DNA of 7,668 bases. It comes from Thermoplasmata archaeon (GTDB lineage Archaea; Thermoplasmatota; Thermoplasmata; Thermoplasmatales; Thermoplasmataceae). Shown piece by piece: positions 1 to 7,668 of this stretch. The stretch's first letter is position 1. Every line of letters starts with the position of its first letter. The stretch covers positions 1 to 7,668 of the forward strand of contig JAKBGP010000096.1 of assembly GCA_021833045.1 (NCBI GenBank), given 5' to 3'. Position numbers and translations under genes: made by a program. Below the pieces are notes generated by a model, which saw only the letters and a list, made by a program, of their open reading frames with translations, was not told the origin of the DNA and searched no databases.

Positions 1-353
1 TCCCTTTATATACGATGATTCCTCTCCTTGAAAGATCAATGGTTGTGTCATGATCCTTTGCTGTTTTTGATAATCTTTCTCTGAATAACCATATGGTTCT
101 TGCATCCGGAAGAAGATCAGGATAATCTAAAAAGTTCATGAATGATATTTTATCATGGATCTCTTTCTCAGCCTGATCATCCACTAAGTTGTACATGGAC
201 TGAAGGTAGAGTACCTTCACCATTGATATGATTAGAATATTGGGTCTCCCTCCCTATCAGTATCATTATGATACAGATCCTTAAGGAGTGGATCATTTAC
301 GAAATAATGTCTGAATGTTTCTCCCTAAGAGCTGTATCGAAGAGATCACTCAT
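1..353 (-). pseudogene. IS5-family transposase, frameshifted N-terminal remnant, cut by the left window edge
   Basis: Read on the minus strand from an ATG at 353-351, the sequence encodes a transposase N-terminus spread over three frames. The first frame gives MSDLFDTALREKHSDII and stops at about 299. The second gives ETFRHYF, then NDPLLKDLYHNDTDREG, to about 250. The third, from about 253 to the edge, gives GGRPNILIISMVKVLYLQ, then VDDQAEKEIHDKISFMNF and PDARTIWLFRERLSKT. The GGRPN, LVDDQAE and TIWLFRERL blocks are hallmarks of the N-terminal domain (DUF772-like) of IS5-family transposases; the DDE catalytic domain would lie left of the window. The breaks at about 300-320 and 245-255, the second in a G-rich run (AGGGAGGGAGA), should abolish a functional product. 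An A/T box, ATTTATTC, lies 22-29 bases before the ATG (375-382) and could be the original promoter. Family assignment is firm; whether the remainder is intact cannot be seen. Confidence 0.8.
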
Positions 354-743
354 GCAGTAACAAGTGTGTTTCTTGAATAAATGTTATGTTTGCACAGACT
401 GTTCAGAATGGGACTTTTTTAGAAATCCCCATAAATAATATCGAATAAAAGAAATGTATAGTTGGCTCTAACAATATGTAGGAAACTTTAAATCCATAAA
501 CATCGATGATCCATAACTTTTTTAATCTTCTCACTTTGCCGTGAACTCAAAAAAATTTATGCCTCCCACACATAATATCTTGCACCTTGTCACGGAGAAA
601 TAACCGCCAACGGCGTTAAGGATGAAGTTGTCATCAGCATTCACTTGGATAAGTGCTTTAAAGCTGGACTATGTAATTTGAAACTTGTATTCACGCCTAT
701 GATTCGCATTTAGAATTAGGGTATTTTTATTTTACTCCATGTT
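354..743. other. Gene-poor stretch between the transposase remnant and the esterase
   Basis: No convincing gene is visible. The left part (354 to about 415) probably belongs to the end of the insertion element. The rest is A/T-rich and broken by stops in all frames. One stop-free plus-strand run of 45 codons ends at the TAG at 711-713 and starts just after a stop at 573-575. It has no start codon and resembles no family I recognise, so it is at best a decayed gene fragment. A TTTATG box at about 556-561 resembles an archaeal TATA element but has no credible gene behind it. The pattern fits an insertion-element graveyard. Confidence 0.5.
395..414 (-). repeat. Possible outer end (terminal inverted repeat) of the IS5-like element
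   Basis: On the minus strand this stretch reads GTCCCATTCTGAACAGTCTG. It begins about 60 bases before the transposase ATG, where the left terminal inverted repeat of an IS5-family element would be expected, and it follows a T-rich run in plus orientation (415-420). The partner repeat would lie beyond the left edge, so the repeat cannot be confirmed here. The assignment rests on position only. Confidence 0.22.
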
Positions 744-1754
744 TTATAATTTTGAGTGAATCATTCTTTTCATCTTTAGGTACCGATGTTCAAGAATTAT
801 TTGAGTTATATCAGCTTCAGGGATTGCATATTCGAATCCGTGGAAAATGCCATCATATACGTGAAGGTCTACTCTTCCGTTGGAATTTATAAGTTTTCTA
901 GCAAAGTCAACTGATTCATCTCTAAAAACCTCGTCGAATCCTACCTCAATATAAGTTTCTGGAAAACCTTCTAAATCGGTTGCTATGGATGGAGAGGCAA
1001 ATTCAGATATCTCTTTTTCTGAGCCAAGATATCCTCTCCATCCCATTCTGTTATAGTACGTTGGCCAGAAAGGCCAGCTACCATCATACTGAGCACTGGA
1101 AAGAGTTGTATTCCTGTGATCTAGCATTGGTGCCATAAGGAATAGGTTCCTTATTTGTGGGCCATTTTCTCTAATTGAGCGCAAAACAACTGAAGCAGCA
1201 AGGCCACCGCCAGCACTTTCTCCCATTATGCTTAACATTTCCGAATTAATTCCAAGACTTTCGGCAAGAGCTGAACAGTACTGGAACCCGTAATAACAGT
1301 CATTCAATGGGATTGGAAATTTAAATTCTGGTGCAAGTCTATATTCTATGTCAAAAATTTTACATCCCAATTTAAGCGATATGGAAGCCAGCCTATTTAT
1401 TTCCTCATCTATTCCTCCTACAAGTAAACCTCCTCCATGGATATGAAAAATACATGGGAGTAAATCTTTCGATCCTGACGGTGAGTAGAGCTTCGCTCTT
1501 ATGTGCGTTCCATGAAATGATTCGTTAATTTCTGCAACTTCAATTCCTGGGATATCAAGCGAATCTGATGTGACACCGGCGGATTTTCTTGCATTAAGTA
1601 GATTTTGCTTAAATTGAATAACCCTATCTTCTACATTGGAAATTCTATTCAACTTCTCAATGTTGTTTCGAACAAGCAAAGACCTTCTAGCTGCCTCTTC
1701 TCTTACTTCCATCACAAGATTACTAACACGTGAATGGATTGCACTTGCTCCCAT
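744..1754 (-). CDS. HSL-type alpha/beta-hydrolase (esterase/lipase family)
   Basis: Predicted carboxylic-ester hydrolase of the hormone-sensitive-lipase (type IV) group, cytoplasmic (no signal peptide or membrane segment). With the ATG at 1754 the protein has 336 residues. The oxyanion-hole motif HGGG is at residues 106-109, YRLAPE at 138-143 and the nucleophile elbow GESAGG at 178-183 (Ser180). The probable catalytic Asp is in VGFDEVFRDE (Asp274) and His in IFHGFE (His305), so the triad and fold look complete. The first 75 or so residues form a helical cap typical of the group. The frame stays open to a TTG at 1796 (350 residues). I prefer the ATG at 1754 because an ATTATTTA box sits 23-30 bases before it, as expected for a leaderless archaeal transcript, and family members rarely need the extra 14 residues. 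An internal ATG at 1712 is a third option. The natural substrate cannot be read from the sequence; such enzymes usually favour short acyl esters. It is divergent from the NamZ gene. Confidence 0.88.
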   Translation of the reverse strand: MGASAIHSRVSNLVMEVREEAARRSLLVRNNIEKLNRISNVEDRVIQFKQNLLNARKSAGVTSDSLDIPGIEVAEINESFHGTHIRAKLYSPSGSKDLLPCIFHIHGGGLLVGGIDEEINRLASISLKLGCKIFDIEYRLAPEFKFPIPLNDCYYGFQYCSALAESLGINSEMLSIMGESAGGGLAASVVLRSIRENGPQIRNLFLMAPMLDHRNTTLSSAQYDGSWPFWPTYYNRMGWRGYLGSEKEISEFASPSIATDLEGFPETYIEVGFDEVFRDESVDFARKLINSNGRVDLHVYDGIFHGFEYAIPEADITQIILEHRYLKMKRMIHSKL

Positions 1755-1776
1755 CAGGGGTCTAATACATGTTGTG

Positions 1777-1784
1777 TAAATAAT
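1777..1784 (-). promoter_or_regulatory. TATA-like box before the esterase ATG
   Basis: On the minus strand ATTATTTA lies 23-30 bases upstream of the ATG at 1754, the spacing expected for an archaeal TATA box driving a leaderless transcript. It falls inside the longer TTG-started reading frame, so a functional promoter here would argue for the shorter protein. Assigned by spacing and composition only. Confidence 0.4.
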
Positions 1785-1796
1785 TGTTTTTATCAA

Positions 1797-2123
1797 TACC
1801 TTATGATCAGTTTTCAGATCTGTTTACATTTTAGTAAATCAAATCTCCTGAAATATTTATTTTCTAAATTCATAAACAGTCACAAATTCTTCTATGAGAT
1901 ATAAAAATGGATTAATATTGCCGATTTCCTTTGATACGAATAGAACATAACTTTTTGGCCTGAATTTAATAAATATTAAGTCGAAAATTGCCGTAAAACC
2001 TGGAAAAGTCGTTTGAAGGATCTCAGTTCGATGACCTTACTTTATTATTAATGTTAATATGGCAGAAATGGCTGCAGTATTCTATGATAAATAATATTAT
2101 TATGTTATTCCAGATACAAACCA
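1797..2123. other. Divergent intergenic region between esterase and NamZ genes
   Basis: No coding frame of credible length or similarity is seen on either strand. The region is very A/T-rich and separates two divergently transcribed genes, so it should hold at least the namZ promoter and perhaps shared operators. The clearest symmetric element is TTAATA-AA-TATTAA at 1966-1979, a perfect 6-base inverted repeat with a 2-base centre. In DNA this rich in A and T such a palindrome may be chance. A short ATG-started frame at 2060 stops after 11 codons and is not considered a gene. Confidence 0.5.
2087..2100 (+). promoter_or_regulatory. TATA-like promoter element of the NamZ-family gene
   Basis: The A/T-only run ATAAATAATATTAT-like segment lies 24-37 bases before the ATG at 2124, and no Shine-Dalgarno-like sequence precedes that ATG (CAGATACAAACCA). 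This is the arrangement expected for a leaderless archaeal mRNA. Evidence is spacing and composition only. Confidence 0.45.
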
Positions 2124-3224
2124 ATGTCCTTTAACCTCGGGATTGAAAATCTTGGAAAAAATAGAATAAATGAGAATGTGGCCTTATTAACTAATGCCAG
2201 TGGAGTAACTCAGAATTTAGAGCAAAACGTTGAATTTCTAATAAGAAAAGGGTTCAGAATTAGAAGGATTTTTACAGCGGAACATGGTTTTTATGGAACA
2301 CTAAACGATGGGGATGATGTTAAAAATGAGACATATAACGGGATAGATGTTGTATCCATTTATTCTGCAGATAGAAAGTCCATAAAACCGGAAGAGCTGG
2401 AAGATGTTGATACAGTGATATATGATTTACAGGATGCTGGCACAAGACCATATACATTTATCTCTTCGCTAAAAAACCTATTAATCACAGCCTCGGAGCT
2501 TGGAAAAAAGGTTGTTGTGTGCGATAGACCCAATCCCCTTTCCAACATTGTAGATGGACCTGTGTTAAAGAAGGAGTTTGTTTCATTTGTTGGAGCGGAC
2601 GAATTTCCACTAAGATACGGAATGACCATAGGTGAATTAGCTCAATTCATGAATAGAAATATTGGTGCAGATCTGAATATTTCAAAGATGACAGATTACG
2701 ATCCGTCAAGATATTATGACAATTACATGAAATATTACGTCCCACCATCACTGAACCTAAATTCTCTAGACTCAATGTTTAACTTTTCAGGAATGGTATT
2801 AATGGAGGCAGCTAATGTTAGCGTTGGTAGAGGCACTCCATACCCATTTATGCAGTTTGGATTGGAAGATCCAGTAGATCTTAGATCTGATGAGTTCGAG
2901 GGTGTTATTCTTAGAAAAACCTCCTTTATCTCATTGCTTAATCCGCTTAAAGAAAAGAAACTAATAGGATATTTCATTCATATAAAGGATAAAAAGAGTT
3001 ACAGTAGCATAAGGATGGTAGCCACTATCATGAAAAAACTCTATAACATGGATAAAAATCTAATTAATTTAAAAAAGCTGAATCTTAATTACGGATCTGA
3101 TGAGATGTCAAAATGGCTTGAGAAAAATGAGATAGTCACAGATCTTTATGAAAAAATTAATTCAGAAATCTCCGAATTCATGAAAATCAGGAAAGATTAC
3201 TCACTTTACAGGTTTCCTAATTAA
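2124..3224 (+). CDS. namZ: NamZ/DUF1343 (GH171) family protein, exo-beta-N-acetylmuramidase-like
   Basis: A 366-residue member of the DUF1343 family, now glycoside hydrolase family 171. Its founding member, Bacillus subtilis NamZ, releases MurNAc from the non-reducing end of peptidoglycan fragments. Conserved blocks appear in order: LLTNASGV (21-28), TAEHGFYG (51-58), YDLQDAGTRPYTF (100-112), DRPNPL (134-139), GPV (145-147), SFVG (154-157), RYGMTIGELA (164-173), NVSVGRGTPYPF (231-242) and the C-terminal RKDYSLY (356-362). The EHG glutamate (Glu53) is a candidate active-site residue. The protein spans the family from end to end but is shorter than the usual 400 or so residues, the loss lying mainly after residue 245. 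Bacterial members usually carry a signal peptide; here the domain begins at residue 4, so a cytoplasmic enzyme acting on imported fragments is inferred. It is divergent from the esterase and convergent with the LdcA-like gene, 49 bases away. Family membership is clear; that the substrate is MurNAc-containing is inferred from homology and the neighbouring LdcA. The symbol follows the bacterial family. Confidence 0.88.
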   Translation: MSFNLGIENLGKNRINENVALLTNASGVTQNLEQNVEFLIRKGFRIRRIFTAEHGFYGTLNDGDDVKNETYNGIDVVSIYSADRKSIKPEELEDVDTVIYDLQDAGTRPYTFISSLKNLLITASELGKKVVVCDRPNPLSNIVDGPVLKKEFVSFVGADEFPLRYGMTIGELAQFMNRNIGADLNISKMTDYDPSRYYDNYMKYYVPPSLNLNSLDSMFNFSGMVLMEAANVSVGRGTPYPFMQFGLEDPVDLRSDEFEGVILRKTSFISLLNPLKEKKLIGYFIHIKDKKSYSSIRMVATIMKKLYNMDKNLINLKKLNLNYGSDEMSKWLEKNEIVTDLYEKINSEISEFMKIRKDYSLYRFPN

Positions 3225-3255
3225 TGAACCATAATCTTTATTTTACATTCTTACA

Positions 3256-3269
3256 TAGTTTTTTGTTTT
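3256..3269 (+). terminator. U-rich terminator of the NamZ-family gene
   Basis: Thirty-odd bases after the namZ stop codon the plus strand holds a T-rich run (TAGTTTTTTGTTTT), preceded by a second T-rich patch at about 3234-3250. Archaeal transcription ends at such U-tracts without needing a hairpin. The run also ends just before the stop codon of the oncoming LdcA-like gene, as expected between convergent genes. No matching T-run is seen for the minus-strand gene, whose transcript may extend antisense into the namZ end. Confidence 0.5.
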
Positions 3270-3273
3270 GATC

Positions 3274-4236
3274 TCAATCAACCATAGATTCCATCAGTTC
3301 AATATAAGGTTCTGATTCGCTTATTCTTACCTTCAGGTTAAGAGGTATTAGCATCTGTTCATTTCCATGCCCAAAAGGTGCCATGGCTAGAGATGGTTTT
3401 GAATATTTTACCATGTATTCCCTTATTACATCTTCTATTGATGGTTTTCCTTCTCCTGAGGTTGACCTATTCTTAAATTCCCCAAATACAAATCCTGCAA
3501 GTTGATTAATCGTGCCATTGAGTATCATTATGTCCAGATATCTTTCTATGTCTACTGATCTTTCATTTGTATCCTCACAGAATAACACTTTATCAGTAAA
3601 CTCCGGCATATAGGGTGTTCCAGTTAGAGATGAAAAGACTGACATGTTGGTTCCCATGGACCTCCCCTGGGCACTTCCTCCAACCACATACTTTACCAGT
3701 CTTTTTATATATGGCCTTAGGTCTGACAGTTCTCCTCTAAATATCTTAAACATTGTTTCCAGTTTTTCCCCTCGAAATTCTTCAGTGTCTGTGTCTGGCA
3801 TAGGACCGTGAAATGTGACTAACCCAGAAATCTTATTTATGGCCATATGAAGATTTGTAATATCACTGTACCCCATGAATATCTTTGGATTATCCCTTAT
3901 CACATCAAAATCTAGAAATGGTAAAATCTGCCTTGCTCCATGGCCACCTCTTGCACAGAATATTGCCTTTACCTTATCATCTCTAAAAGCATCCATCAAT
4001 TCTTTAGCACGCAACTCTGGATTTGCTGAATGATAAGTTTCCTGATTGAGCTTTTTCACGTTGATACCATATGTTACCTTATACCCAATTCTGGTTATTT
4101 CTTCAACTGATTGGCTTAGGGATATAATTTCAGGGTAACTTGACGGGGCTATTATTCTTATTTCATCCCCTATGTTCAGTCTAGCAGGCTTTATTACCTC
4201 TTTCCGTTCTCTGTAATTTTCAGAACTTCCTGTCAT
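3274..4236 (-). CDS. LdcA-like LD-carboxypeptidase, peptidase family S66
   Basis: A 320-residue S66 serine peptidase, close in length to bacterial LdcA (about 300), which removes the terminal D-alanine from muropeptide tetrapeptides in the cytoplasm. Visible blocks: GDEIRIIAPSS (23-33), the N-terminal nucleotide-like fold start; ARGGHGA (95-101); MGYSDIT (121-127) with nucleophile Ser124; FHGPM (142-146); SLTGTPYMPE (203-212); LFCEDTNE (218-225) with Glu221; and APFGHGNEQ (286-294) with His290. The Ser-Glu-His triad is therefore complete. GTN (195-197) stands where many relatives have GGN. No signal peptide is visible, and about 16 polar residues precede the family core. S66 also includes MccF, which cleaves microcin-C-type peptidyl-nucleotides; the LFCEDTNE and TPYMPE blocks look more LdcA-like, but an MccF-like detoxifying role cannot be excluded. 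The ATG is supported by a TATA-like box 27-36 bases upstream. The transporter-binding protein lies 239 bases upstream on the same strand. Confidence 0.88.
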   Translation of the reverse strand: MTGSSENYRERKEVIKPARLNIGDEIRIIAPSSYPEIISLSQSVEEITRIGYKVTYGINVKKLNQETYHSANPELRAKELMDAFRDDKVKAIFCARGGHGARQILPFLDFDVIRDNPKIFMGYSDITNLHMAINKISGLVTFHGPMPDTDTEEFRGEKLETMFKIFRGELSDLRPYIKRLVKYVVGGSAQGRSMGTNMSVFSSLTGTPYMPEFTDKVLFCEDTNERSVDIERYLDIMILNGTINQLAGFVFGEFKNRSTSGEGKPSIEDVIREYMVKYSKPSLAMAPFGHGNEQMLIPLNLKVRISESEPYIELMESMVD

Positions 4237-4262
4237 TTCATTCAGTTTGTAATATGGACTCC

Positions 4263-4272
4263 ATATAATAAA
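4263..4272 (-). promoter_or_regulatory. TATA-like promoter of the LdcA-like gene
   Basis: On the minus strand TTTATTATAT lies 27-36 bases before the ATG at 4236 and is preceded by an A-rich stretch (TTAAAAA) that could serve as the BRE. Together with the absence of a Shine-Dalgarno site, this suggests the LdcA-like gene has its own promoter instead of depending on read-through from the binding-protein gene upstream. Confidence 0.5.
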
Positions 4273-4413
4273 TTTTTAAGTATCAAATATAAATTTTAGA
4301 CTAATAGCTGGTGGAAATGGTTGGGATAATTTCAGAAACAGACACAGGTATCCAAGGAATCTTAACCAATAAAATTAATGTGAAAACTGAAAATAAATAT
4401 TTGGGTAAATGTT

Positions 4414-4434
4414 GAAATATAAAAGAAAAGATTT
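4414..4434 (-). terminator. Pyrimidine-rich probable terminator of the binding-protein gene
   Basis: About 45-60 bases after the stop codon of the solute-binding protein, the minus strand reads through a T-rich tract (AAATCTTTTCTTTTATATTTC), with an earlier short T-run (ATTTTT) directly after the stop. Such U-tracts act as archaeal terminators. This would separate the binding-protein transcript from the LdcA-like gene downstream. Assigned from composition only. Confidence 0.38.
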
Positions 4435-4475
4435 GTGATGCCAGAGATCTTTATCTGACATATTCATTTTAAAAA

Positions 4476-7400
4476 TTAGTTTTTAGGTATTTTCGGTTTT
4501 CTTATGAGATAAACACCTGCAACCGCAACAATAACTATCACAACTGCTATTATGGCAATTATCTCATAGAGGAAGTTGCTGCTTGATGGTTTTACAACTT
4601 TTTCAGTTACGGTGTAATTGACGAAGGAGTATGCAGGTACGACAGAGCTATTTGATGTGCTTGCCTTGGCAACAATGCTTTCATTTGCCGTGACATAAGA
4701 CCCGCTTCCTGAACTTGCATCCCCTACCGTAAATGTGAATACCGCAACACCAGCGCTATTTGTTGTCAGGTTATATCCACTGATTCCAACATTTACACCG
4801 GAAAGACTATATGATGTGATGTTAACATATGCTCCAGATACCGCGGTTCCATTTTCGGTCACTGTGATTGTTATTTTACCTGTTTGACCTGACGTGTAAC
4901 TGGTACTTCCCAAGTTATATGACATAACCAGAGATGGATTTATTACGAATACATTGTTGTATGCGTATCCCGCGCCTGTTTGGTTCTGGTTTCCCACAGA
5001 TGCGACTGCAGTTATGTTAATCTCCTGATAATAAAGAGACATGGGATTTCCAGATGAACCATATGTTGTCATTAAGTTTGAAAGTGTCTTAGGAATTGTG
5101 AATGTGAAATTTGCACTGTTTCCAGTAGATGTGTTAAAAGTGAATGCACTGCTTGTAACACTTCCGGGTATTCCCGACATTACCACGGTTATGTTTGCAT
5201 CTTTTACCTTTGTTCCAGTGCTATTAGTTACAGTGTACATGTATTTACCGCTGCTTCCTGCATATAGATGGGTTTTGCCTGAATAAGTAGATGTAACTCT
5301 TAGATTATTCTTTTCGTTTGTGTTTATCAACTCTATGTTAAGATATGTTGATGTTGTAATTGTATGAATATCCTTAGTGGGTGGATTTACTGTTGCAGAA
5401 ATGTTAACCTCTTCATCTGGCAGGTTTATTATGTTTCCGCTGCTTGATGTTGTTTGCAACAAAAGGTTGAGATTTTTGAATACTTCATACTTCCAAGTTG
5501 CTTGACCAGCTGAGTTTGTAGTAAGCTGGTTGGATGTTGTGTTGATCAACCCTTTTGCTATGGATGATACAGATACTCCAACTGTGGCACCCTGAACCGG
5601 TAAACCAGTTGTCTTATTAAGAACTGTGTATGTTATACTTCCACTATCTCCCTGCTTTTCTACGAGAGCTCCTGTTAATTTCTCTTGTACCTGCATGTTA
5701 TACTTATAGCTTACAGAAGTTGTTGTCTTGGCCTTGTTTACCTCCATAAGTGTGAAATAAAGGCTGAATAGAGAATTCGAGTTCTCTGTGGTAAAGTTAG
5801 AGAACTGGTTTGTTTGGAATGCATCTATCGTTGTTGTATATCCTAGGTTGATTAGAGTTGCTTCTTCTATGATTAATGTCTGAATCTCCTTTGAAATATG
5901 GATTGCCTGCTGATATGAGTCCGACTGCAACAATTCATTTGATAGGTTGGTTAGAAGAGTGGTCACCTGTTGACCGGAAAGATGTTTCCCATTAAAGTTC
6001 AACGATGTATATGGTCCTAGAGTACAACCTACACTGAAATAAGCTGGGGCATCATTTATGAATAATGCGCATAGGTCTGCTGGATCTCCAGATTCTGTTC
6101 CCTGTCCATATTCTGCCATCTGATAGAAATTTCCTTTACCAGTGATGGTTTCGTATATGTTGTTAAACATTGTTGTGTAGGCTTCTTCTTTTATCACCGT
6201 CGTTATACCAAGGGCTGCGAATGAGGTTGACATTTCATCTGCAATTTCAGCAGCGCAAGGTGTCTCACTTCCTGGAGCTATCTGTATTTGAATTGTTACC
6301 TTCTTACCGTTATATGTCAGCGTTCCAGAATTGTTAGCCATTCCAGGTATGGCACTAATCATTGATTTGGCTTTCTGCATATTATAAGTATACTGCGGGC
6401 TTGATGAATTGTACCAGAGCACATTGCATGGTGGTACGGTATTTGAAGATGGTGTTAAGAGTCCATCATATACTGTTCCATCTATTGTTTGGTATGGAGT
6501 TGCATAGCTCAATGCCTGTCTGAAGGTAGTAATGTTAAGAGGCGTTTCGTTTTCATTTATTCTAACTGCACAGAAAACCTGAGATGGCTTAATATAAATA
6601 TATGCTCCTGGAGTTCCCTTAACCAGTGACAGGAAAGAAGGTGATACTGGTAGAAGATCCAGTTGTCCTTTGGTGAAGGCTGCTACCATCGAAGACTGAG
6701 AAGAATAATATGGTTGATAGAATTCATATATCTTTGGAGAGTACTGTCTCAGGCCACTGCTCGCGTTTGCGTACTGTGCAAAGAAATGTGGATTTACATA
6801 AAACTTATCATATTGGTTTGGTACAATGCCACCCTGAGGCATACCGTATCCATTAACGACCATAAATGGTCCGTCTCCGACCAATCCTGGAGCAGAACCA
6901 GTTGCGGTGTTCCATCCTAGATCCCAGCCATAATAACCGTTTCCAGAAGAAATTCCTGGAGTGTAATTGAATAATCCTTTAACACTCGTAAAGTCGTGAT
7001 GTACCCAGATATTATATGGAAGAATATATGATTGCAGGGAGCTTGATTGAATTAACAGTGTTGGTTTTGGTACAAATACCTTTACTGAAAGATTTCCATT
7101 AGGAATTACATTAACTACTCCTGGCCATCCACCAAGGGCAGCCTCAAGCCTCCAGCTCAGAACTACATCCCCAGACTGCAGATAATATTTCTTCATTACA
7201 GTCGGTGCATAGCTCGTGTATGTGTGAGTAAATGACACTCCAGTTGAATTTCTATAATCAACTTTGTTTGAAAAAGTATATGTTTGCGAAGCATTTGCCT
7301 TTGACCAGTCTGTCCACTGAACATATGGTCTCAGATATATTGTATACACATATGAATAATTTGTCATTTTGCCAGTTTCAATGTCGAAGGTTTTATTGTT

Positions 7401-7668
7401 TGACGTAACGTGTGTCAATGTGTAGTTTGTAGCGAGCCATGGTTCTATTTGCCCATCAGGCATTGTTTTGTAAAGACTACCATATACCAATTTTGCAATG
7501 AACAAATCGCCAAAAGTAATTCCTGTAAATGTGTTCAGATCACCTATGGTACAGTCGATACCACAAGTAAATGTTCCATTGGTGTAACCGGGCTCTTCCA
7601 TTGTAGTTGTTGGCATTTGCCATGCTGTTGGTGATGAACTATCAGGCTGTACGTTCAAATAACTACTC
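4476..7668 (-). CDS. Membrane-anchored family-5 ABC transporter solute-binding protein with Ig-like modules (5' end outside window)
   Basis: The extracellular substrate receptor of a peptide/oligosaccharide-type ABC importer. The frame is still open at the right edge (SSYLNVQP precedes the TTG at 7658), so the start and any signal peptide lie outside; 1063 residues are visible. Counting from the 7658 codon, residues 40-640 form an SBP_bac_5 domain: GDLNTFTG...VYGSLY, ILPYNIW (212-218), GDGPFMVVNGYG (261-272), AAFTKGQLDLLP (326-337), FRQALSYA (379-386) and MQKAKSMI (427-434). Three beta-rich Ig-like modules follow, at about 650-765, 785-895 and 905-1018; the first and third share the turn LTTNSAG. 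A hydrophobic helix (about 1029-1052) and the basic tail RKPKIPKN anchor the protein by its C-terminus. More than 20 N-X-S/T sequons suggest heavy glycosylation, fitting an acidophile surface. Archaeal oligopeptide-class binding proteins often carry a C-terminal anchor; the Ig-like stack here is unusually long. Permease and ATPase genes are absent and would lie to the right. The ligand is unknown: peptides by default, muropeptides by context. Confidence 0.88.
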   Translation of the reverse strand, partial: SSYLNVQPDSSSPTAWQMPTTTMEEPGYTNGTFTCGIDCTIGDLNTFTGITFGDLFIAKLVYGSLYKTMPDGQIEPWLATNYTLTHVTSNNKTFDIETGKMTNYSYVYTIYLRPYVQWTDWSKANASQTYTFSNKVDYRNSTGVSFTHTYTSYAPTVMKKYYLQSGDVVLSWRLEAALGGWPGVVNVIPNGNLSVKVFVPKPTLLIQSSSLQSYILPYNIWVHHDFTSVKGLFNYTPGISSGNGYYGWDLGWNTATGSAPGLVGDGPFMVVNGYGMPQGGIVPNQYDKFYVNPHFFAQYANASSGLRQYSPKIYEFYQPYYSSQSSMVAAFTKGQLDLLPVSPSFLSLVKGTPGAYIYIKPSQVFCAVRINENETPLNITTFRQALSYATPYQTIDGTVYDGLLTPSSNTVPPCNVLWYNSSSPQYTYNMQKAKSMISAIPGMANNSGTLTYNGKKVTIQIQIAPGSETPCAAEIADEMSTSFAALGITTVIKEEAYTTMFNNIYETITGKGNFYQMAEYGQGTESGDPADLCALFINDAPAYFSVGCTLGPYTSLNFNGKHLSGQQVTTLLTNLSNELLQSDSYQQAIHISKEIQTLIIEEATLINLGYTTTIDAFQTNQFSNFTTENSNSLFSLYFTLMEVNKAKTTTSVSYKYNMQVQEKLTGALVEKQGDSGSITYTVLNKTTGLPVQGATVGVSVSSIAKGLINTTSNQLTTNSAGQATWKYEVFKNLNLLLQTTSSSGNIINLPDEEVNISATVNPPTKDIHTITTSTYLNIELINTNEKNNLRVTSTYSGKTHLYAGSSGKYMYTVTNSTGTKVKDANITVVMSGIPGSVTSSAFTFNTSTGNSANFTFTIPKTLSNLMTTYGSSGNPMSLYYQEINITAVASVGNQNQTGAGYAYNNVFVINPSLVMSYNLGSTSYTSGQTGKITITVTENGTAVSGAYVNITSYSLSGVNVGISGYNLTTNSAGVAVFTFTVGDASSGSGSYVTANESIVAKASTSNSSVVPAYSFVNYTVTEKVVKPSSSNFLYEIIAIIAVVIVIVAVAGVYLIRKPKIPKN

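Follow-up and report, generated by a model that had tools for sequence, protein, structure and literature searches.

A candidate gene island for the import and breakdown of bacterial murein fragments in Thermoplasmatales archaea

The DNA described here is a stretch of 7,668 nucleotides (in the following, the window) from an archaeon of the order Thermoplasmatales. It contains five genes, among them those for NamZ-B, a member of the exo-β-N-acetylmuramidase family (GH171/DUF1343), and for a serine peptidase of family S66. In the nearest genome, G001 (G-numbers label comparison genomes, L-numbers extracted loci), which consists of one contig of 1,938,699 bases, these genes lie inside an island of about 37 kb (approximately 1,596,773–1,634,304). 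We consider it very likely that this island serves to take up fragments of bacterial murein and to break them down in the cytosol. The proposal builds on gene content, co-occurrence, clustering and motifs, on the lack of signal-like N-termini, on the absence of DapF and on FolC as the sole Mur-ligase-family protein of G001; from these we infer the enzymatic steps, the transport substrates and the regulation. The initial annotation had read the adjacent NamZ and S66 genes as a two-gene catabolic or defensive module against bacterial wall fragments. The catabolism of wall fragments is supported, in an island larger than the pair then considered; the two-gene module and the defensive role are not.

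Gene content of the island

The G001 island begins with a BadF kinase, a β-lactamase/AmiE-type hydrolase, a SIS (NagB-II-like) deaminase, NagA and MurQ, followed by an L-Ala-D/L-Glu epimerase, a second BadF kinase, a TrmB regulator and a GH31 protein. Next come a MalK/MalG/MalF/solute-binding protein (SBP) sugar transporter, a GH3 protein of the NagZ type (KHFPGHG...DSH), a CocE/S15 hydrolase and a first NamZ, NamZ-A, and then an NlpC/P60 protein with SH3, a DUF218 protein, LysA and the four genes shared with the window (α/β hydrolase, NamZ-B, S66 and the binding protein SBP5). The island ends with S13/PBP4, a GNAT protein, a class-II glutamine amidotransferase, an amidase, another GNAT protein, an M20 peptidase and a MenC/NSAR-type enzyme. 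GH31, MalG, MalF, the GNAT proteins and the amidotransferase were named by eye from their translations, with no profile search behind these names; the other genes were assigned by Pfam/NCBIfam profiles. MurQ, GH3, NlpC, S13, AmiE, LysA and NagA are present as single copies, every one inside the island, in the 1.734 Mb (89%) of G001 that were searched. The initial annotation had suggested a look for homologs of murQ, nagZ, an N-acetylglucosamine (GlcNAc) kinase or an amidase, and MurQ, the NagZ-like GH3, the BadF kinases and the AmiE-like hydrolase are indeed found within about 25 kb of NamZ-B.

In the pathway that we propose, dead or lysed bacteria would release muropeptides and amino-sugar disaccharides, which membrane-anchored binding proteins would capture outside the cell and Dpp-type and sugar ATP-binding cassette (ABC) transporters would carry in. 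In the cytosol, the AmiE-like hydrolase would separate N-acetylmuramic acid (MurNAc) from the peptide, the NagZ-like GH3 protein and NamZ would degrade the glycan from its ends, and the sugars would be phosphorylated by the BadF-type kinases, joined by AnmK in other islands. MurQ would take off D-lactate, and NagA and the NagB-II-like deaminase would pass the remainder to glycolysis. From the peptide, D-Ala may be trimmed by the S13 and S66 carboxypeptidases, a YkfC-like NlpC/P60 enzyme may cleave D-Glu from meso-diaminopimelate (meso-DAP), the epimerase would turn L-Ala-D-Glu into L-Ala-L-Glu, and LysA would convert meso-DAP to lysine. The TrmB regulator is probably in control of the island.

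The G001 MurQ reaches 305.9 bits in the subfamily profile NF003915 (cut-off 168) and NagA 284.8 bits (cut-off 225.65). By sequence, the nearest solved relatives are a MurNAc-6-phosphate etherase (4lzj) for MurQ, a dipeptide epimerase (3jva) for the epimerase, β-N-acetylglucosaminidases including YbbD for GH3, and an NLP/P60 protein (3h41) for NlpC/P60. A ykf-like trio of NlpC/P60 with SH3, dipeptide epimerase and Dpp-type binding protein is present at the family level, with the epimerase at 228 bits against an equivalog cut-off of 500 and the SH3_16 match of NlpC/P60 exactly at the cut-off. The two BadF-family kinases score 87.9 and 90 bits against NagK (cut-off 370), and their substrate is assigned by family only.

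Over the island loci examined, S[LMIV]TK is conserved in 17/17 AmiE-like proteins, DCSG in 17/17 NlpC/P60 proteins, KTG in 13/13 S13 proteins and KH[FI]PGHG in 19/20 GH3 proteins. Among the MurQ rows covering the respective positions, E-x-x-P-T is found in 16/16 and E-x-[AS]-E-D in 17/17, two glutamate motifs that we take to be catalytic. Our first, narrow patterns failed for several families (LysA CE.[SGA]D 0/14, GH3 SD[SAG][MLI] 7/20, NlpC GH[VI]G 9/17, epimerase K.KVG-type 3/17 and D.NQ[AG] 7/17); widened patterns were found in 14/14 LysA (CE..D) and 17/20 GH3 proteins ([ST]D.[MLI]), and the NlpC histidine in 11/17.

In the window itself (Table 1), both NamZ-B domains score far above their Pfam cut-offs, and the gene had been annotated correctly, in coordinates and completeness, as that of a full-length DUF1343/GH171 protein. 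Its predicted model, with a mean predicted local distance difference test (pLDDT) value of 94.3, matches two solved DUF1343 structures with template modeling (TM) scores of 0.87 (4k05) and 0.82 (4jja). E53, D101, D104, R108, E171 and E228 are invariant in 39 of 39 aligned NamZ sequences, and the acidic residues among them (E53, D101, D104, E171 and E228) presumably form the active site, in a catalytic role. NamZ-B is an exo-β-N-acetylmuramidase family protein with putative MurNAc-cleaving activity, and its N-terminus is not signal-like.

Table 1. Genes of the window, with profile scores
Feature	Position	Strand	Profile scores and remarks
IS5/IS1182-type transposase fragment	2..223	-	DUF772 52.1 bits; outside the pathway
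Hormone-sensitive-lipase-type α/β hydrolase	744..1796	-	Abhydrolase_3 148 bits; pathway role unassigned; same position in G001
NamZ-B, GH171/DUF1343, 366 residues	2124..3224	+	NamZ_N 199.9 bits (cut-off 26.9), NamZ_C 86.2 bits (cut-off 25)
S66 serine peptidase, 320 residues	3274..4236	-	Peptidase_S66 128.8 bits (cut-off 25), Peptidase_S66C 93.8 bits (cut-off 23.7)
SBP5, family-5 extracellular solute-binding protein (Dpp/Opp type)	4476..7667	-	SBP_bac_5 108.7 bits

The islands of other genomes vary around this content. Synteny extends over AmiE, NagA, the epimerase, the kinase, Dpp-type ABC genes and AnmK, the last of which is found in the islands of 8 genomes; the single member scanned matches PF03702 at 266 bits. 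Other islands hold Dpp-type transporter genes for a binding protein, two permeases and two ATPases, each gene cluster being represented in 10 or 11 genomes; they were named from reading, and the one binding protein that was scanned fell below its equivalog cut-offs. Named from one scanned protein each, further members are a DppA-type D-aminopeptidase in 3 genomes, an M19 dipeptidase in 5, and in 4 the two partners of a GlcD/GlcF-type 2-hydroxyacid dehydrogenase, a pair well suited to the D-lactate that MurQ would set free. Two families with no obvious role in murein breakdown also recur, the class-II glutamine amidotransferase in the islands of G020, G043, G082, G088 and G107, and a GNAT protein in those of G013, G047, G050, G075, G082 and G107.

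Nine of the 20 genomes with examined island loci encode a membrane-anchored family of 381–439 residues (e.g. L128:16414-17640) with Ig/PKD-like tails, in which Cys113 and His226 are invariant among 8 aligned members. It weakly resembles Amidase_6 (7/8 members, best E 0.0016) and NlpC/P60 (6/8, best E 0.012), with matches below the Pfam cut-offs where shown, and it was not found in the 89% of G001 searched. We regard this family as a candidate for the missing murein hydrolase at the cell surface.

Two observations concern transport genes elsewhere in G001. A second TrmB-GH31-MalKGF-SBP sugar cluster (G001:C1:1573979-1583700, L062), located some 15 kb upstream, is a paralog of the one in the island. 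A paralog of the window SBP5 (805 bits) at G001:C1:317556-326023 directly precedes DppB-, DppC- and fused ATPase-like genes, and this set is likely the type of transporter with which SBP5 partners.

Host and distribution among related genomes

The host is an archaeon of the Thermoplasmatales. It had initially been placed, tentatively, in the Thermoplasmata and described as free of murein, in agreement with this position and with the searches made, which gave no sign of murein synthesis. G001 shares 90% of sampled 31-mers with the window and probably belongs to a Cuniculiplasma group. Positions 737–7668 of the window align to it without gaps at 99.0% identity, with codon differences that are 6 synonymous and 0 non-synonymous in NamZ (367 codons), 7 and 3 in S66 (321), 34 and 11 in SBP5 (1061), and 0 and 2 in the α/β hydrolase (351). 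The window SBP5 has a hydrophobic C-terminal anchor and starts beyond the window end; its G001 counterpart has 1093 residues. Positions 1–736, which adjoin the α/β hydrolase where G001 has lysA, have no match in G001:1566000-1674000 and are probably a strain-specific insertion. Searches against Rfam and PHROG and for tRNAs gave no hit or nothing informative. We reject bacterial contamination as the source of the island, which two genomes of a single contig, G001 and G020, carry and which recurs in G030, with a MurQ identical to one that NCBI names Picrophilus oshimae.

Our comparison set comprised 121 related genomes. NamZ is present in 21 of them, GH3 in 26, S13 in 27 and NlpC/P60 in 29. MurQ exceeds 200 bits (TIGR00274) in 23, a threshold chosen post hoc, as scores drop from 224 to 37 bits; at E <= 0.001, 96 genomes have a match of some kind, which apart from those 23 stays below 38 bits in nearly all cases. 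LysA is matched in 56 genomes (52 above 200 bits) and S66 in 59 (58 over the cut-off). For co-occurrence, LysA was counted above 200 bits and DapB above 60 bits (16 of the 104 genomes with a match). By these measures, GH3, NlpC/P60, S13 and LysA are each found in 21/21 NamZ genomes, MurQ in 20/21, S66 in 14/21 and DapB in 5/21. NamZ, GH3, MurQ, NlpC/P60 and S13 occur jointly in 20 of the 121 genomes, that is, in 20 of the 21 with NamZ. GH3, MurQ, NlpC/P60 and S13 are strongly associated with NamZ, and S66 is weakly so (Fisher p = 0.049).

The same genes are also neighbors. Within 30 kb of NamZ we find GH3 in 19/21 genomes, MurQ in 17 of the 20 genomes encoding it, NlpC in 15/21, S13 in 13/21 and LysA in 12/21, counts that are lower bounds since most misses sit on other contigs, many of them short. 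S66 lies within this distance in 3 of the 14 genomes that have it, hence in 3 of the 21 NamZ genomes. Given these few cases and the weak association, we reject the two-gene NamZ–S66 module of the initial annotation and regard the pairing as incidental.

The island set comes and goes within genera, being present, for instance, in 3 of 12 genomes examined of genus g1. In a phylum sample of 384 genomes, MurQ is found in 12 (NF003915, all over the cut-off), NamZ in 12 and both in 11. The exceptions are G121, with a MurQ cluster devoid of NamZ, and G355, whose NamZ (G355:C1:28000-47999, L249) stands among genes that look bacterial by eye, in an archaeal metagenome-assembled genome listed at 8% contamination; we did not count it as archaeal. 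The G121 locus (L139, G121:C14:1-20000), from a class-level relative, holds two MurQ genes, AmiE, NagA, GH3, a kinase, NlpC/P60, an epimerase and a member of the AnmK cluster within 20 kb. In G139, NamZ and MurQ are on separate contigs, and the neighbors of MurQ are unlike those in the island. Smaller MurNAc clusters exist on L161 1-7496, a contig of a Thermoprotei metagenome-assembled genome (MurQ, kinase, NamZ, AmiE), and in G332 (AmiE, NamZ, NagA, kinase, MurQ), and a contig of a Culexarchaeota metagenome-assembled genome (L212 1-5024) carries NamZ-GH3 and, by eye, an AnmK-like start. The trait may thus be scattered more widely in archaea, or these short contigs may be misbinned bacterial DNA.

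For the NamZ tree, computed by a quick method, we used 60 rows, 17 from the comparison genomes and 43 hand-picked from 80 database loci; nine of these 80 loci are Thermoplasmatales contigs, several of them already among the comparison-genome rows. The tree contains two Thermoplasmatales groups, A and B, apart from the sampled bacterial sequences, with support values of 98 and 100 in the Shimodaira–Hasegawa-like approximate likelihood ratio test (SH-aLRT). A common origin of both groups is not rejected in the approximately unbiased (AU) test (p = 0.106), so that they may go back to one acquisition or to several.

Competing explanations

The S66 peptidase is the least secure member of the island. 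The first description of its gene, as full length, with an intact Ser-Glu-His triad and convergent with NamZ across a gap of 49 bases (3225–3273), holds in full: the triad Ser124/Glu221/His290 is invariant in 28/28 aligned relatives, and the predicted model has a mean pLDDT of 92.4. Its designation as LdcA-like holds at the level of the LdcA/MccF family, of which it is a member and within which it is a candidate L,D-carboxypeptidase. It does not extend to LdcA identity: the protein scores 106.7 bits against the equivalog PRK11253 (cut-off 378), and its model is nearer to MccF (TM 0.84, E 5e-29) than to LdcA (TM 0.78, E 2e-22). Both this structural proximity and the weak association with the island would suit an MccF-like hydrolase that inactivates peptidyl-nucleotide antibiotics, stands apart from the pathway and adjoins NamZ by chance. 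We nevertheless deem this explanation rather unlikely. In a tree of the window, G012 and G006 sequences and 30 loci from the 58 genomes over the cut-off, computed with a long-branch warning, the S66 proteins of the window and G012 form a branch of their own, separate from the order-wide S66 that G001 also carries. Moreover, an S66 gene lies beside NamZ in each of G001, G012 and G006, an argument tempered by G006, where the S66 protein falls outside this branch and its NamZ neighbor is of type A and not B. In the 7 NamZ genomes devoid of S66, D-Ala would have to be trimmed by something else, perhaps S13.

To the island as a whole, three other explanations could apply. A general scavenging of amino sugars or glycoproteins, such as chitin or N-glycans, would make use of GH3, NagA, the deaminase and the BadF kinases, which can serve any GlcNAc source, and would fit the GH31-like and sugar ABC genes. 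We give it little credence, as MurQ, NamZ, AnmK, NlpC/P60, the dipeptide epimerase, S13 and LysA would have no role in the catabolism of GlcNAc only, and MurQ, NamZ, NlpC/P60 and S13 tightly co-vary with GH3.

The second explanation, an antibacterial weapon or defense whose enzymes are exported to lyse competing bacteria, has precedents in bacteria-killing archaeal murein hydrolases, as the main text of a recent survey describes (PMC12352652), and the anchored Cys-hydrolase-like protein is linked to the island in 9 of the 20 genomes examined. We used the highest 19-residue hydropathy within the first 60 residues as a measure of localization, that is, hydropathy alone and no dedicated predictor. 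By this measure, in none of the 17 enzyme families tested is the N-terminus as hydrophobic as a signal or anchor (maximum 1.53), as opposed to SBP1 (2.86) and three of four SBP5 proteins (1.85–2.71; the fourth, at 0.86, starts at a contig edge). As the binding proteins have signal-like N-termini and the enzyme families do not, the fragments are probably imported and cut inside, and MurQ, NagA, the epimerase and the kinases would be meaningful only within the cell. An exported weapon is therefore highly improbable, and with it the defensive role first suggested for the NamZ–S66 pair.

Lastly, recycling of an own murein or murein-like wall, to which the enzyme set bears resemblance in bacteria, can be virtually dismissed, because FolC is the sole member of the Mur ligase family (PF08245) in G001, none of the 21 NamZ genomes encodes DapF (2/121 overall; the search was positive in 9 of 14 well-known control genomes), and cells of C. 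divulgatum S5 and PM4 are bounded by a cytoplasmic membrane as their sole envelope, according to the main text of their description (PMC5155288). The initial proposal of catabolism in place of recycling thus agrees with the gene set of the island. The presence of LysA in all NamZ genomes, in the absence of DapF, likely reflects the formation of lysine from imported meso-DAP.

Several observations weigh against the catabolism of imported murein fragments. DapB is present in G001 (166.6 bits, cut-off 122), so that imported DAP is just one option, and LysA also occurs in genomes devoid of the island. The step that opens intact murein outside G001 cells has no assigned enzyme. The G001 MurQ, at 252.8 bits, falls below the strictest equivalog cut-off (TIGR00274, 302), which 3 of the 121 genomes alone pass. 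GH3, LysA (the G001 piece), S13, the epimerase and the kinases are likewise below their NCBIfam equivalog cut-offs, and the AmiE-like protein resembles solved structures only weakly (57 bits) and scores 116.7 bits against PBP4B (cut-off 385). The epimerase motifs are not universal even when widened (K-x-K[VIL] 13/17, D-x-N[QGE] 16/17), 7 of the 21 NamZ genomes possess no S66, and the Fisher tests ignore phylogeny and shared ancestry.

Relation to known systems

Murein ranks among the major polymers of microbes, and bacteria and some eukaryotes are, to our knowledge, taken to be its consumers. If our proposal is true, archaea join them, with a near-complete pathway in cultured acidophiles (Picrophilus, probably Cuniculiplasma), and some would have specialized in feeding on the remains of bacterial walls. 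This would explain in part how Cuniculiplasma lives as a scavenger, account for its reported incomplete lysine synthesis, tie the growth of archaea to the death of bacteria in acid mine drainage, and make the island a source of enzymes from very acidophilic hosts. With slightly more doubt than conviction, we further suggest that several archaeal lineages free of murein, wall-less or, in Picrophilus, with an S-layer only, live partly on bacterial murein and gain or lose as a unit an island for import, for the breakdown of glycan, lactyl ether and peptide, and for the conversion of DAP to lysine; in many of them, anchored Cys hydrolases (9 islands) might first open the sacculus outside the cell.

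The 2025 survey in PLoS Biology (PMC12352652) reports in its main text archaeal peptidoglycan hydrolases that kill bacteria and are modular, 32% of them with signal peptides. It shares with our study the theme of murein-active enzymes in archaea that make no murein, with Thermoplasmatota prominent; whereas it sought weapons and required a catalytic and a wall-binding domain, the island points to intracellular catabolism, and its main text contains none of the terms NamZ, NlpC, carboxypeptidase, recycling and catabolism. Surveys limited to modular hydrolases would overlook such an intracellular murein metabolism of archaea. The GH25 muramidase of Aciduliprofundum, as presented in that survey's main text (PMC12352652), is also an archaeal murein glycosidase of bacterial origin, but a lone antibacterial enzyme with no pathway. 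A precedent in lifestyle is C. divulgatum, probably from the same species group, which the main text of PMC5155288 describes as a scavenger of proteinaceous matter with an incomplete lysine pathway; the words 'murein' and 'glucosamine' do not occur there.

Single genes are already annotated, as in the NCBI label of the Picrophilus protein, N-acetylmuramic acid 6-phosphate etherase. For a MurQ/NamZ catabolic pathway in archaea, we found no description in the openly licensed literature, covered mostly by titles and the starts of abstracts and excluding preprints.

A close counterpart is the murein turnover of Bacillus subtilis, with its ybb genes (namZ-nagZ-amiE-murP-murQ) and its dpp-ykf genes (the S66 peptidase YkfA, the epimerase YkfB, the endopeptidase YkfC and the Dpp transporter). 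At the family level, both systems comprise NamZ, a GH3 NagZ, an AmiE-type hydrolase, MurQ, NlpC/P60 with SH3, an Ala-Glu epimerase, S66 and a Dpp-type binding protein. They differ in their setting, as the searches made found no murein synthesis in the archaeal host, and in their GH3 proteins, which have no signal-like N-terminus in the archaea, whereas YbbD of B. subtilis is a lipoprotein by its PDB name. The archaeal cluster, in turn, includes LysA, S13, NagA and TrmB as well as ABC sugar transport genes and BadF kinases, and it unites in one island the two halves that B. subtilis keeps as ybb and dpp-ykf.

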